From contig JAFDEK010000005.1 in NCBI GenBank assembly GCA_019310385.1, forward strand, positions 27,594 to 91,593: DNA of 64,000 bases. Reading direction: 5' to 3'. Position numbers and translations under genes: made by a program. Numbering within the stretch: the first letter of the stretch is position 1; every line of letters begins with the position of its first letter. This stretch comes from Deltaproteobacteria bacterium. Lineage in GTDB: Bacteria; Myxococcota_A; UBA9160; UBA4427. This document shows positions 30,145 to 35,725 of this stretch, one piece after another. The notes under the pieces are model-generated. The model was given only the letters and a program-made list of their open reading frames with translations. It was not told where the DNA came from and did no database searches.

Positions 30145-31350
30145 CTAGAGAAACTCGCTCTCATCGAAGCCCGCCTTGCGCAGCGTCTCCACCACGTGAC
30201 GCATCACCAGCAGCACGGAGCCGTCCACGGTGATGTTGTCGACGATGGGGACCTCGTACAGGTCCGCGAGCTCCATGAAGTGGTTCTGGATCTTCAGGAT
30301 CGACTCGAGATGCTCGACGTAGCGATCCCCGTCCCGGCGCGATTGCCGACGCCCGCGCTTCAGGAAGTGGCTGCGCAGGGACTCCTCGTCGAGGCGCGCG
30401 ACCACGAGATAGATCACGTGGGCGACGTCGGCGTAGCGTTCGAGGTCGATGAGCCCTGGCACGAGGGTCACACCGTCGAGCACCAGGCTCGCGTTCTCTT
30501 CGATGGCGCGGTCGATCATCGCGCGAACGCCGACCGAGACGACGGAAGCCTGGGCCATGAAGCCCTGCACCACAGGATCTTCGTCGCCATCGACCACGCC
30601 GGCCGGCGTAGCCAGGGCTTGGTGGGCCTCGAAAGAAGAGGCGTGGATGGCGGGGATCAGCTCGGGCGAGAGCATGATGCGCATCACCTGCCGGATCGCA
30701 TCCGTCGACAGCACGCGGCTGATCCCCAGGCGCCGCGCCACCTCGAGCGCGAGTGAGGTCTTGCCCGCTCCACTGGCGCCGCCGAGCAGGATGATCACCG
30801 GCTTCTCCGGCTCCTGGAACTTGCGCCAGACCAGGTAGCGGGCAGCCGTTTTGGGGCCGAAACGCTGGAGCAGCTTGTGGTAGGCCCCCATGCGCAGATC
30901 CCGACGCGCGATTCGCTGGGTGCCCTTGCGCAGGAGCTCGAGCTCGAGCTCCCGGGACACGTCGAAGGCGTCATTGGGCTCGATGGAGGCTGCGAGCAGG
31001 GATTGGGAGAGGGCTCCCTTGGAGAAGGGGGAGCAATCGTCCGGGCTACCGACCTTGATGCTCGGCGGCAGGGGGATGGGCGGCTGATGCTCGCCCAGGG
31101 CCTCGCTGCCCAGGATTTCCTCGACGGCCTTGGCAAGCTCGGCGCGCGGGACCACCCCCCGACCGCGAATTCGCACCCGGATCTCGTCGGCGGTGGCCAA
31201 GGCGTCCTCGAAGGCCACTCCCCGCGCCATCAGGGAGTGCACCATGATCCCGCGCATGAAGGGACGGCGGCCGCCTTCCTCCTCGATCCAGACCCTACCC
31301 TTCTCGCCTCCCCCGGAGGCGCGAGCCTTTTGCTGCTCGACATCTGCCAT
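30145..31350 (-). CDS. 2-phosphoglycerate kinase-like P-loop protein with ATP-cone
   Basis: 401 residues. An N-terminal ATP-cone-like region (about 25-110), then a P-loop kinase with GGASGAGKTSLA (about 189-200) and a Walker-B-like LVLDGVTLVPG. This arrangement is that of 2-phosphoglycerate kinase, known from methanogens that make cyclic 2,3-diphosphoglycerate. In bacteria relatives of unknown substrate occur. The gene heads the minus-strand run with sppA, trmB, rlmN and the phosphatase. No cyclic diphosphoglycerate synthetase is visible here, so the reaction is uncertain. Confidence 0.75.
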   Translation of the reverse strand: MADVEQQKARASGGGEKGRVWIEEEGGRRPFMRGIMVHSLMARGVAFEDALATADEIRVRIRGRGVVPRAELAKAVEEILGSEALGEHQPPIPLPPSIKVGSPDDCSPFSKGALSQSLLAASIEPNDAFDVSRELELELLRKGTQRIARRDLRMGAYHKLLQRFGPKTAARYLVWRKFQEPEKPVIILLGGASGAGKTSLALEVARRLGISRVLSTDAIRQVMRIMLSPELIPAIHASSFEAHQALATPAGVVDGDEDPVVQGFMAQASVVSVGVRAMIDRAIEENASLVLDGVTLVPGLIDLERYADVAHVIYLVVARLDEESLRSHFLKRGRRQSRRDGDRYVEHLESILKIQNHFMELADLYEVPIVDNITVDGSVLLVMRHVVETLRKAGFDESEFL

Positions 31351-31536
31351 GGCTCCAGCCTACCCCAGGGCCGGAAGGCCCGCGAACGAGCAGGCAGCGT
31401 GAGAAATATGTCAGAAAAGCCCCCCATTTCCCCAGACCGCTACAAAATCGTGAATTATTGGGTTGACTTCTGCTGGCGAAGGGTCTTAGCTGGTAGGTGG
31501 GACTCGTGGGTCAGCTGGGGGAAGTGGCGGTAGGCG

Positions 31537-32139
31537 ATGTCGGTAGACTCCACCGGAGACACTGGAACGAAGAGCGCGTCCCACGCGAAATCGACCGCTC
31601 CGATCGCCCGAGGCAGGGGCAGTGAGGGCAGGGGCAGTGAGGGCACGAACCCTGTGGGAATCGGCGGTGATGGCAGCGTGAGCGACCTCTATCGGACCAA
31701 GGAAGTCGTCGAAATCCTCCAGATCTCCCGGCGCCAGCTCCAGTACTGGGCGCAAACGGATCTCGTCGTCCCCTCGGTGAAGACCCGCGGCGGTCACCAT
31801 CGATACACCTTCGAGGACCTGGTGGCCCTGAAGGCGACCAAGCGCCTCATCGATTCGGGCGTCTCGGTACAGCGAATCCGCAACAGCATTCAGGGACTCA
31901 GGCAGCTTCTACCGAGCGTCGAGCGCCCTCTGTCGGATCTGGTGCTCGTCGCGACCGGCGACGTAGTTCTCGTCTTCATGGAGAGCACTGCGTTCGAAGC
32001 CGTGTCGGGCCAGGAGTGGGTGTTCGAGGTCGCGCACTTCCAGCGCGAAGTCGAATCCTGGAGAGATGCCACTCGCGCAGGAGGGCTGCGCAAGGCGCGG
32101 TCGGTTCGCCGCCCGCCGGACTGGGTGCAGACGGCCTAA
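31537..32139 (+). CDS. MerR-family transcriptional regulator
   Basis: 200 residues. A winged-helix MerR domain begins at about residue 50 (YRTKEVVEILQISRRQLQYW) and continues through GGHHRYTFEDLVALKATKRL. The C-terminal half is not a known metal-binding or effector domain. It lacks the Cys residues of metal sensors. The N-terminal 47 residues contain a duplicated RGRGSEG and may not be translated; GTG at 31678 is an alternative start that leaves the MerR domain intact. It lies 81 bp upstream of the ParA-CBM gene on the same strand and is likely co-expressed with it or controls it. Confidence 0.82.
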   Translation: MSVDSTGDTGTKSASHAKSTAPIARGRGSEGRGSEGTNPVGIGGDGSVSDLYRTKEVVEILQISRRQLQYWAQTDLVVPSVKTRGGHHRYTFEDLVALKATKRLIDSGVSVQRIRNSIQGLRQLLPSVERPLSDLVLVATGDVVLVFMESTAFEAVSGQEWVFEVAHFQREVESWRDATRAGGLRKARSVRRPPDWVQTA

Positions 32140-32220: not shown

Positions 32221-33309
32221 GTGCGAACAATTGCCATCGTGAACCAGAAAGGTGGATGTGGGAAGACCACCACCTGCGTGAATCTGGGCGGTGCCCTCGC
32301 CGCAGATGGCGCCCGGGTTCTGGTGATCGATCTCGATCCCCAGGCGCATTCCACTCTGGCCCTCGGAATCGATCCCGAAGAACTCGACGAGAATCTCTAC
32401 GAGGTGCTGGCCGAGCCCGATGGCGCGGCGCAGCTGGAGCGGGTCGTCGTGGGCATCCTCGAGGGCCTCGACCTGGGCCCCTCGAGCATCGTGCTCTCGG
32501 CGCTGGAGCAGAAGCTGGCCGGTGAGCGCCACGATGCCCGAACCGAGCGCCTCAGCATGGCCCTCCGCGGTCTCTCGGTGAACTACGACTACGCCCTGAT
32601 CGACTGCCCCCCCAACGTCGGCCTGCTGACCTTCAACGCGCTGCGCGCCGCCCAGGAGGTGATCATTCCCCTCGAGACGAGCTTCTTCGCCATCGATGGC
32701 GTTCAGAAGCTGCTCGAGACCATCGGGCTGCTCTCGGAGCGCATCGGACACGACCTGACGGTGCGCATCCTCCCGACCCTCTACGACGGACGCACCCGCT
32801 TCGCACGCGAGACCCTCGGCGAGATCCGGGAGCTGTTCGGGGACATGTGCTTCGACAGCGTGATCCGGCAGAACGTCAAGCTACGCGAGGCCGCCCGTAA
32901 GGGCGTCCCGATCAACCGCTACGCCGCCTCGGCCAACGGAACGCGGGACTACGCCGCCCTGGCCCTCGAACTCGCGGCCAGCGCGCCGGAGCTGGTAACC
33001 CACGATGACGTCGCCCCCGAAGACCCGAGCCGGCCCGAATCGCGGGAGGTGGTGGTCCGCTTCCGCGACGCCGGCGCCGGAGAAGTGCGCATCGCCGGCG
33101 ACTTCAATGGCTGGGTGCCCGACAAGGGCGTACGTTCCCTCATCGAGTCCGAGGGTCAGTCGCGAGTATGGACGAAGGTCCTGCGGCTGAGCCCCGGAAC
33201 CTATGAATACCGCTACGTGGTGGATGGCGAATGGTGTTCCGACCCGGAAAACCCACAGTCGGTCCCGGGACCGGCGGGCGCGACCAACTCCGTACTCGTG
33301 GTGCGCTGA
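32221..33309 (+). CDS. ParA-type ATPase fused to a glycogen-binding (CBM48/AMPK-type) domain
   Basis: 362 residues. Residues 1 to about 255 are a complete ParA/Soj ATPase: deviant Walker A QKGGCGKTT with signature Lys10 and catalytic Lys15, DLDPQAHST, and DCPPNVGLLTFNAL. From about 272 to the end comes an E-set beta-sandwich: VRIAGDFNGWVPDKG, LSPGTYEYRYVVDGEW and a final ATNSVLVV. The two Trp residues and the Asn sit where AMPK/CBM48 domains contact alpha-glucan. ParA proteins are dimerising ATPases that position cargo. The fusion suggests positioning of, or sensing by, glycogen-like polymer, which is inference. No ParB follows. GTG start after a G-rich site. Confidence 0.88.
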   Translation: MRTIAIVNQKGGCGKTTTCVNLGGALAADGARVLVIDLDPQAHSTLALGIDPEELDENLYEVLAEPDGAAQLERVVVGILEGLDLGPSSIVLSALEQKLAGERHDARTERLSMALRGLSVNYDYALIDCPPNVGLLTFNALRAAQEVIIPLETSFFAIDGVQKLLETIGLLSERIGHDLTVRILPTLYDGRTRFARETLGEIRELFGDMCFDSVIRQNVKLREAARKGVPINRYAASANGTRDYAALALELAASAPELVTHDDVAPEDPSRPESREVVVRFRDAGAGEVRIAGDFNGWVPDKGVRSLIESEGQSRVWTKVLRLSPGTYEYRYVVDGEWCSDPENPQSVPGPAGATNSVLVVR

Positions 33310-33442: not shown

Positions 33443-34261
33443 TTGCCGCGCGACCTATCCGACGTACTGCACTACTTCATGCCCGAGGCCGAGCCGGAGC
33501 AGAGAGGCGACGCCGGCAAGGCGCGCAGCTCCCCAGCTCCAGCCGGAGAGCTTGCAACGCCCGCCCTGCCCGCGGCCTTGCCTCTGGTCGCTGTGCCCAT
33601 CGGGGACCGCGATGTGGTGCGGGCGGCCTTCACCTGGAACCTGGTAGTCGAGATCGCCCGCCTCGGCGGCAAGGCCAGCCTGGTCGTCGCCGGCGAGAGT
33701 CAGCGCTCTCCCCTCTTCCCCGCGAGCGGCATCGGCGCCATGGGGGCAGAGGTGATCCGCGTCCGAGCGGATAGCCTGGAAGAGCTCCAGCGAGCCGCCC
33801 TCGAAACGGCGGCCAGCCGCGCGACCACGGCCGCGGAGGGGGGCGTCGTCTTCGTCCGCATCGCACCCACCTGGCTGCGCGAGGCGCGGCGCGGCGCCGA
33901 GCTGCTGCGCTGGGCGCTGCTCTTCTCCTCCTCGGATCCGCGCGACCTGCTGGAGACCTACGGGATGGCCAAGCTGATCCTGGCCGGCAACTCCCGCGCC
34001 CACATCGGCGTCACGGTCCACGGCGCCCGCTCTCTGGGCGAGGCCGAGGAGTCCTTCGGGCGGCTCTCCGCCAGTGCCCGACGCCACCTCGATCACGAGC
34101 TTCAGAGCTACGGACTGATCGTGGATGACCTGGACGTCTACCGCGCGATCGTGGCCCAGCGCGCCATCGGTCTCGCTCATCCCCAATCGCCCGCCGCACG
34201 CGCTCTCCGCGACATCGCCAGGATGCTGGCGGACCACGCCCGCCACCCCACCCTTGCCTGA
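33443..34261 (+). CDS. MinD/FlhG-like pseudo-ATPase
   Basis: 272 residues. After a Pro/Ala-rich N-terminus, residues 48-84 line up with the start of a MinD/FlhG ATPase, but the P-loop reads GDRDVVRAA (54-62) where GKGGVGKTT is expected: both lysines and the Thr are lost. The rest keeps the FlhG pattern: strands around VVFVRI, a SSDPRDLLETYGMAKLI helix, GARSLGEAEESFGRL, and the end motif HPQSPAARALRDIA. It should therefore keep the fold without ATP hydrolysis. TTG start with GGAG six bases upstream. It follows the ParA-CBM gene and overlaps the next gene by eight bases. No flagellar genes are nearby. Confidence 0.65.
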   Translation: MPRDLSDVLHYFMPEAEPEQRGDAGKARSSPAPAGELATPALPAALPLVAVPIGDRDVVRAAFTWNLVVEIARLGGKASLVVAGESQRSPLFPASGIGAMGAEVIRVRADSLEELQRAALETAASRATTAAEGGVVFVRIAPTWLREARRGAELLRWALLFSSSDPRDLLETYGMAKLILAGNSRAHIGVTVHGARSLGEAEESFGRLSASARRHLDHELQSYGLIVDDLDVYRAIVAQRAIGLAHPQSPAARALRDIARMLADHARHPTLA

Positions 34262-34856
34262 GTTCACCTACCTCCCACCGCCCCCGCCCAGCGAAGTTCG
34301 GAAATTCGTTCGCCAGCGCATGAGCCTCCTGGAGCCCGCGACCCGGATTATCGCCGAGGATCTCCTCGGCGAGGGCGCCCGCGTGGACCTCGTCGCGGTC
34401 GACCACCAGGGTCAGGCCGTGCTGGTGTTGATCGGGGAGGAGGGCGAGGACCGTGCCCTTCTCACCCGCGCTCTGGCCCAGTGCGCCTGGGCGAGGTCCC
34501 GGATCGGAGACTGGCTGAAGCTTGCTCCGCAGCTCGACCTCGAGGCCGAAGCTGGCGTGCGAGGGATCATCCTGAGCCCCAGCTATCACTCCGACACCCT
34601 GCTGGCCGCGTCGAGCCTCGAAGTGCCCAGGATCAGCCCGGTGGTCTATCGCTGCATCGGCGACGAATCGCGCACACAGCTGCTCCTCGAGGCGACGGCA
34701 CCCCCCGCCGGCTGGCCGGGCGATGCGCTCTCCCGCTCCCTTGGCGAAGCGGTGCCTCCCTTCCGGAGCGGGCTCCGGGAGTCCGATCTGAGACTCAGCC
34801 CCGAGGAGCGCCGGGAGCTCCTGGCCCCCAAGCCGCCCGACCTCACCCATCGCTGA
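34254..34856 (+). CDS. Degenerate PD-(D/E)XK nuclease-like protein
   Basis: 200 residues. The middle resembles RecB-like/DUF91-type nuclease folds: a leading EPATRIIAEDLL helix, VDLVAVDHQGQAVLVLIG and then a LLTRALAQCAWAR helix. The Asp (45) is present, but the E-x-K expected at 59-61 is L-I-G, so catalytic activity is doubtful. TTG start at 34254 overlaps the upstream stop by eight bases; ATG at 34320 is an alternative. Translational coupling to the pseudo-MinD gene indicates a joint function. Fold assignment is by eye and uncertain. Confidence 0.5.
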   Translation: MPEFTYLPPPPPSEVRKFVRQRMSLLEPATRIIAEDLLGEGARVDLVAVDHQGQAVLVLIGEEGEDRALLTRALAQCAWARSRIGDWLKLAPQLDLEAEAGVRGIILSPSYHSDTLLAASSLEVPRISPVVYRCIGDESRTQLLLEATAPPAGWPGDALSRSLGEAVPPFRSGLRESDLRLSPEERRELLAPKPPDLTHR

Positions 34857-35071
34857 GAGCGCGGCTCCAAGCACCAGGTGCCATCTCACGCCCCCCCCCA
34901 GCGCCCCGCGGGGCCGCGTCAGAAAAATCCGCTCCTCGCGTAAAAATTCCGACACCTTTTCAATCGAAACACCACTTCCCAAGTGGAGAGTGCCGCAGTG
35001 CCAGGTCCCGAGCCGCAGAGAAGGGCTCGATACGGACACGAGGAGATGCTGCAAGGCGCTGTTCGAGCTGG
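34857..35071 (+). other. Intergenic region with AT-rich blocks and a small palindrome
   Basis: A 215-bp gap upstream of the sigma factor gene. It contains two A-rich blocks (near 34921 and 34941) and the inverted repeat CCACTT-CCC-AAGTGG (34972-34986), a possible operator. I see no good -35/-10 pair. Confidence 0.4.
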
Positions 35072-35725
35072 ATGAAGGGGGTGCTGGAATTGGCTGCTGG
35101 GAGCGCTGCGCCGGACGCGACACCGGACGCACCAACCGACGTTCTACCGGATGTTCTGCCGGACGTTTTGCCGGATGTTCTGCCGGATGAAGTTCTCGTA
35201 GATCAGGTACGCCTGGGAAACCGGGGAGCCTTCGATCTTCTGTATCAGCGCTATTTCAAGCGCATCTACTACTTCGTCGACCGGCGTCTCGACAACCGGG
35301 CGGACACCGAGGAGACGGTGCAGGAGGTGTTCTGCAACGTTTTTACCTCCATCGACGGCTACCGGGGCGAGGCCCCCTTCGCCGCCTGGGTGTTCGGCCT
35401 CACGCGCAGGACCATTGCCACCCGTTTCAAGAAGAAGCGCGCCCCGACGGTGCCGCTGACTGAGGAGGGCGGCGAGCCCTACTCCGCCGACAATTCCGGC
35501 ACCTCGAATCACCCTTCTCCCCTCGAGTCCTACGAGTACCGGGAGCGCGTAACCAACATGGAGACGATGCTCCGCGAGCGTCTGAATCCAGAGCAGCAGA
35601 CCCTCTTCCACTTGCATCACATCGAGGATCGCTCCATCAGCGATATTGCCCGCACCCTCGACAAGAGCGAGAACGCGGTGAAATCGAATCTCTACCGAAC
35701 GCGCAAGATCCTGCTCGCGCGTTAG
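35072..35725 (+). CDS. ECF-type RNA polymerase sigma factor
   Basis: 217 residues. Region 2 begins at about residue 38 (VRLGNRGAFDLLYQRYFKRI, then DTEETVQEVFCNVF) and region 4 at about 165 (LNPEQQTLFHLHHIEDRSIS, then NAVKSNLYRTRKILLA). There is no region 3 domain, as in ECF sigma factors. Ahead of region 2 lies an acidic extension with four DVLP repeats that is not part of the fold. No anti-sigma factor is recognisable next door. ATG at 35072 is the best start, though no strong ribosome-binding site is seen. Confidence 0.85.
   Translation: MKGVLELAAGSAAPDATPDAPTDVLPDVLPDVLPDVLPDEVLVDQVRLGNRGAFDLLYQRYFKRIYYFVDRRLDNRADTEETVQEVFCNVFTSIDGYRGEAPFAAWVFGLTRRTIATRFKKKRAPTVPLTEEGGEPYSADNSGTSNHPSPLESYEYRERVTNMETMLRERLNPEQQTLFHLHHIEDRSISDIARTLDKSENAVKSNLYRTRKILLAR
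35138..35185 (+). repeat. Four 12-bp tandem repeats encoding DVLP
   Basis: Units gacgttctaccg, gatgttctgccg, gacgttttgccg and gatgttctgccg, each encoding DVLP, in the N-terminal extension of the sigma factor. Unit gain or loss would keep the frame. Confidence 0.9.

Follow-up and report, generated by a model that had tools for sequence, protein, structure and literature searches.

As a general rule, the N-terminus with which a partner acts on its ParA/MinD ATPase is disordered and positively charged, and many ParA-family ATPases are termed orphans, their partner being not known (PMC10241942). In the ParB of M. xanthus the ParA-binding motif comprises residues 11–19, of which L11, L15, L18 and I19 bind ParA and R13 is needed for activation (PMC12462528). 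In AMPK, W100, K126, W133, L146 and T148 each contribute to the binding of glycogen by the β subunit, and mutation of L146/T148 lowers binding (PMC2642990).

The locus described here encodes a ParA ATPase fused to an AMPK-beta/CBM48-type domain, here called ParA-CBM, followed by a candidate partner. It lies in the window, by which is meant the whole stretch of DNA analysed (64,000 nucleotides). No account of such a fusion was found in the open-access literature, subscription papers being outside the scope of the search. The features of the locus are as follows.

30145-31350, reverse strand: gene with an ATP-cone and a P-loop kinase-like domain, divergent from the operon
31463-31491, forward strand: probable operon promoter (TTGACT, 17-base spacer, TTAGCT), inside a conserved TTGGGTTGACTT element
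31537-32139, forward strand: MerR-type HTH protein, upstream of ParA-CBM
32221-33309, forward strand: ParA-CBM, GTG start, 362 residues (ParA ATPase 1–254, linker 255–272, AMPK-beta/CBM48-type domain 273–361)
33037-33306, forward strand: CBM part of ParA-CBM, with W298, R331, W338 and N356 kept and the equivalents of L146/T148 variable
33443-34261, forward strand: candidate partner gene, a predicted FlhG/FleN-fold (MinD family) pseudo-ATPase with no P-loop and a ParB-like N-terminal motif
34254-34856, forward strand: fourth gene of the operon, 200 residues; its TTG start overlaps the stop of the partner

Residues 1–180 of ParA-CBM match AAA_31 above the Pfam cut-off (HMMER, E = 1.2e-49), and Foldseek finds that the ParA part resembles Soj/ParA structures, with E-values to 1.2e-25. 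The lysines of the deviant Walker A motif (KGGxGKTT; K10 and K15), the Walker A' residues D37 and D39 and the Walker B residue D128 are invariant in 49/49 orthologues, and the basic residues R191, R193, R216, K220 and R222 are conserved in the same alignment. An earlier, sequence-only reading had described an intact deviant Walker A with both lysines, which the alignment bears out; its idea of an intracellular positioning ATPase also holds up as a predicted role.

The C-terminal domain matches AMPK1_CBM (PF16561) at residues 277–361, scoring 43.9 bits against a gathering cut-off of 26.8 (HMMER). The nearest solved sequences are the AMPK beta CBMs (PDB sequence search; AMPK beta-2 CBM, E = 1.8e-8), and AlphaFold predicts a ParA fold, a disordered linker at 258–270 and an all-beta domain at 275–361 with pLDDT of about 80–91. 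Four of the AMPK-beta glucan contacts are kept, namely W298 (equivalent to W100), R331 (K126, with Lys replaced by Arg), W338 (W133) and N356 (N150), while the equivalents of L146 and T148 are not conserved in the orthologues. The Trp of DFNGW and the Trp of DGEW are invariant (49/49), and the Asn is present in 45/49. Judged from this conservation, the Trp/Arg/Trp/Asn ligand face is under selection. The sequence-only reading had proposed a ParA fused to an alpha-glucan-binding-type domain, and on this Pfam, the PDB match and AlphaFold agree. It had named two grounds for doubt, a fold unlike that of a CBM and homologues without the Trp residues; neither appeared on comparison with AMPK beta and among the orthologues. 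Its more specific claim, of a glycogen-binding E-set domain with Trp, Trp and Asn contacts, stands for the type of domain and for these three residues, but does not extend to the two contacts that have been lost.

The fusion is due neither to chance nor to mis-assembly, because full-length orthologues are present throughout the order. Among 284 genomes sampled across the phylum, 52 match at E <= 1e-60, these being 52/60 of one class and 0/224 outside it, at a cut too strict to register fusions outside the class that have diverged further. One of the 52 (G026) has no CBM, and the fusion is thus the norm in this class (about 51/60 sampled genomes). The named loci of the class are from Myxococcota/Deltaproteobacteria MAGs and include isolate UBA9160, and the class is therefore probably GTDB UBA9160. 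A CBM profile search found ParA-CBM in at least 13/246 Nitrospirota genomes, and about 108/198 Phycisphaerae genomes have a strong CBM match in an open reading frame of at least 366 residues, the ParA P-loop being in the same frame in 28 of the 30 Phycisphaerae loci fetched. A scan ahead of this wider sampling likewise showed ParA-CBM in both Nitrospirota and Phycisphaerales. The combination of ParA and AMPK1_CBM, which the earlier reading had thought worth seeking elsewhere, therefore occurs in the Myxococcota class, Nitrospirota and Phycisphaerae.

A maximum-likelihood tree of ParA domains was calculated, in which Soj and further ParAs from genomes of similar kinds served as the comparison set. 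The CBM-type ParAs of the three phyla, together with two CBM-less orthologues, form one clade (support 100/99), separate from the comparison set and outside the Soj clade. Because the ParA halves group in this way, ParA-CBM is probably a single ancient fusion family with at least two losses of the CBM; transfer of the fusion between phyla may be an alternative to pure single descent. An origin from a plasmid or phage was considered and rejected: no similar CBM was found in phages, and there was one weak, unannotated match in a large Vibrio plasmid record.

Several further loci are worth recording. ParA orthologues at L169 (G025) and L170 (G026) have a low-complexity tail in place of the CBM, and offer a comparison, made by nature, from which the contribution of the CBM could be judged; in G025 the CBM is gone, yet the ParA and partner genes remain together. 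One genome has a second copy of the ParA-CBM operon (L183, G011:C75). Short proteins of Elusimicrobia type (L096-L100 and L102) have a hydrophobic N-terminal stretch and a terminal CBM with the sequence DVRIAGDFNKW, without a ParA.

The gene order in Myxococcota is the divergent kinase-like gene, MerR, ParA-CBM, partner and small protein, some loci being without MerR. Nitrospirota loci have MerR, ParA-CBM and partner, and in some cases the small protein. The MerR-type protein, kept in most loci of both phyla, probably regulates the operon. Upstream of it in 26 loci is a conserved element (31438-31491 in the window) that reads CAAAAT...TTGGGTTGACTT, with TTAGCT 17 bases on, and is a probable promoter/operator. 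The divergent gene adjoins the operon in nearly all Myxococcota loci and looks like a relative of 2-phosphoglycerate kinase. The fourth operon gene is conserved in Myxococcota and Nitrospirota, and searches with it gave neither a known family nor a structure match. A gene for an ECF sigma factor occupies 34481-35725; its N-terminus, as predicted, has a short tandem repeat (DVLPDVLPDVLPD), with repeats near 35120-35190. Analysis with PADLOC gave only weak matches to generic ParA/HTH profiles, and a defence system was rejected.

The candidate partner was overlooked in the sequence-only reading. It has no Pfam match, and a direct profile comparison with ParA-CBM gave no match either, so that FlhG structures were required in order to place it. 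Its profile matches FlhG/FleN structures (E = 1.2e-13 to PDB 4rz2), and its predicted structure (pLDDT 89) matches the same FlhG (Foldseek E = 1.3e-13, TM 0.66-0.69). The P-loop is degenerate: GKGGVGKS of FlhG is aligned to xxRDVVRA, and the aligned columns have no common lysine. On its sequence, the partner is a pseudo-ATPase that has lost the P-loop. The neighbour in Phycisphaerae is homologous to it (hhalign E = 7.4e-10) and also matches FlhG (E = 1.6e-4). A homologous partner is found downstream of ParA-CBM in all three phyla, and in most Phycisphaerae loci, there being no adjacent partner at 3 of the 13 examined. This repeated pairing suggests that ParA-CBM and its partner make up a positioning system, to which the CBM would add a ligand arm. 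The observation that no ParB lies nearby was literally right, but the next gene encodes a strong candidate partner, which may do the job of ParB.

The N-terminus of the partner has low confidence in the model (pLDDT about 56-58) and is taken as disordered. In the window, its first nine residues are M-P-R-D-L-S-D-V-L, and the consensus is M-x-[RK]-x-L-x-x-V-L, with R/K3 in 52/57 sequences, L5 in 53/57, V/I8 in 54/57 and L/I9 in 50/57. When the short peptide is set by eye against M. xanthus ParB, M1-R/K3-L5-V/I8-L/I9 falls on L11-R13-L15-L18-I19, with equal spacing. The ParB of the window genome itself reads ALGKGLGALIP. The partner reads RLGRGLEDIS in Nitrospirota and SGRGLEEVF in one other Myxococcota lineage (L186), and for this reason the ParB-like form may be ancestral; Phycisphaerae partners are without the central Arg.

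Starting from the fusion and its common descent, the synteny, the loss of the partner P-loop and the N-terminal motif, all of them observed, we hypothesise that ParA-CBM and its pseudo-FlhG partner form an uncharacterised positioning system of the ParA/MinD family, with a peptide-triggered ATPase and the CBM as an extra arm, and we regard this as somewhat better than an even chance. ParA-CBM would bind ATP, dimerise and bind the nucleoid, as its intact motifs and conserved basic residues suggest. The disordered N-terminal peptide of the partner, with its central Arg and hydrophobic flanks, would dock on the ParA dimer and trigger ATP hydrolysis, as the N-terminus of ParB does. The folded, ATPase-dead domain would carry the link to the cargo, or be that link, and the CBM on its flexible linker would be an additional docking or sensing arm. 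In most bearers this arm would have a ligand other than storage glycogen, which could be a different glycan, a small sugar or a protein. What the system does is most likely to position a cargo on the nucleoid. A bolder form of the hypothesis, held only tentatively, is that the system is ancient and undescribed and is shared by three phyla. In it, an FlhG-like protein with a dead ATPase would stand in for ParB by means of a ParB-type activating peptide, and the ligand arm of ParA would make the movement of cargo respond to a carbohydrate signal. Because the pair is conserved across these phyla, a partner can be named and the activating residue predicted, and lineages that have been little studied thereby offer two proteins on which the model can be tested.

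There are other ways of reading the CBM. It is possible, though we lean against it, that the E-set fold was kept as a protein-docking module, whose ligand is for example the partner or the cargo. The CBM is about as conserved as the ATPase (mean identity 66% against 70%, and 14% for the linker), which is unusual for a mere sugar anchor, and two glucan contacts are lost; however, conservation of the four classical sugar contacts is not predicted by a protein-binding role. Less likely again is a sensor of soluble sugar, in which maltodextrin or another small glycan gates the ParA cycle and reports carbon status. Across the three phyla the aromatic/Arg/Asn face does not vary, though the polymer enzymes are often absent, and AMPK is a precedent for allostery (PMC2642990), but the operon has no sugar-related gene.

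The sequence-only reading had suggested that storage granules are positioned or inherited, or that glycogen controls the ATPase; that is, the CBM binds storage glycogen, which ParA distributes or which tunes the ATPase. The AMPK-type domain, above the Pfam cut-off and with its four contacts, is compatible with this. A search of 55 genomes covered glycogen synthase (PF08323, GT5), branching enzyme (TIGR01515, GlgB), phosphorylase (PF00343, GT35) and GH57 (PF03065). At least one family occurs in 12/42 fusion-bearing genomes of the class, and such enzymes are present in the tested Nitrospirota and Phycisphaerae genomes. However, none of the four was found in the window genome (G000, 88% complete) or in the other 30 of the 42 bearers, several of which are 94-98% complete, while 3 of the 9 class genomes without the fusion (G025, G032 and G039) have branching enzyme. 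Fusion and alpha-glucan enzymes show no association among these 42 bearers and 9 non-bearers (Fisher p = 1.0). The operon contains no glycogen gene, and the CBM has not kept L146/T148, at which mutation weakens the hold of AMPK on glycogen (PMC2642990). Storage glycogen is thus an unlikely ligand here, and we give the suggestion little credence. A glucan-binding-type domain in cells mostly without the searched glycogen enzymes poses a sharp question as to its ligand.

Control of flagellar number by a pair acting like FlhF/FlhG is very improbable: the partner has the FlhG fold and one Phycisphaerae locus adjoins genes that look flagellar, but the operon has no flagellar gene, the partner lacks the ATP site used by FlhG, and FlhA (PF00771) is absent from the window genome and about 30/42 bearers, which already goes most of the way to refuting the idea, so that flagella do not explain the FlhG-like partner.

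The preferred ParA/pseudo-FlhG system may finally be set beside those already described. With AMPK beta and CBM48 it shares the fold and four glucan contacts, and differs in the loss of L146 and T148, in the fusion to ParA, and in its cellular setting. FlhG/FleN, which are MinD-like ATPases, resemble the partner in fold and C-terminal half; the partner differs in its lost P-loop and its N-terminus, and flagella are usually absent in bearers. ParABS (Soj/Spo0J) shares the ParA fold and motifs, and the peptide in register with the ParA-binding motif of ParB. The system is not classed as ParABS, because no gene with a ParB/Srx domain is adjacent, the neighbour being FlhG-like, and because its ParA is outside the Soj clade; it has in addition the CBM, and the ParB-like gene of the window genome sits with Soj on another contig. 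McdAB, PomXYZ, ParC/ParP and other protein-cargo ParA/MinD systems likewise have a ParA with an adjacent partner whose N-terminus is disordered and charged (PMC10241942). They differ from ParA-CBM in that its partner is a dead protein of MinD/FlhG fold. We know of no other ParA with such a partner, and if an ATPase does pair here with an inactive member of its own superfamily, ParA partners can be made in a way that is new.
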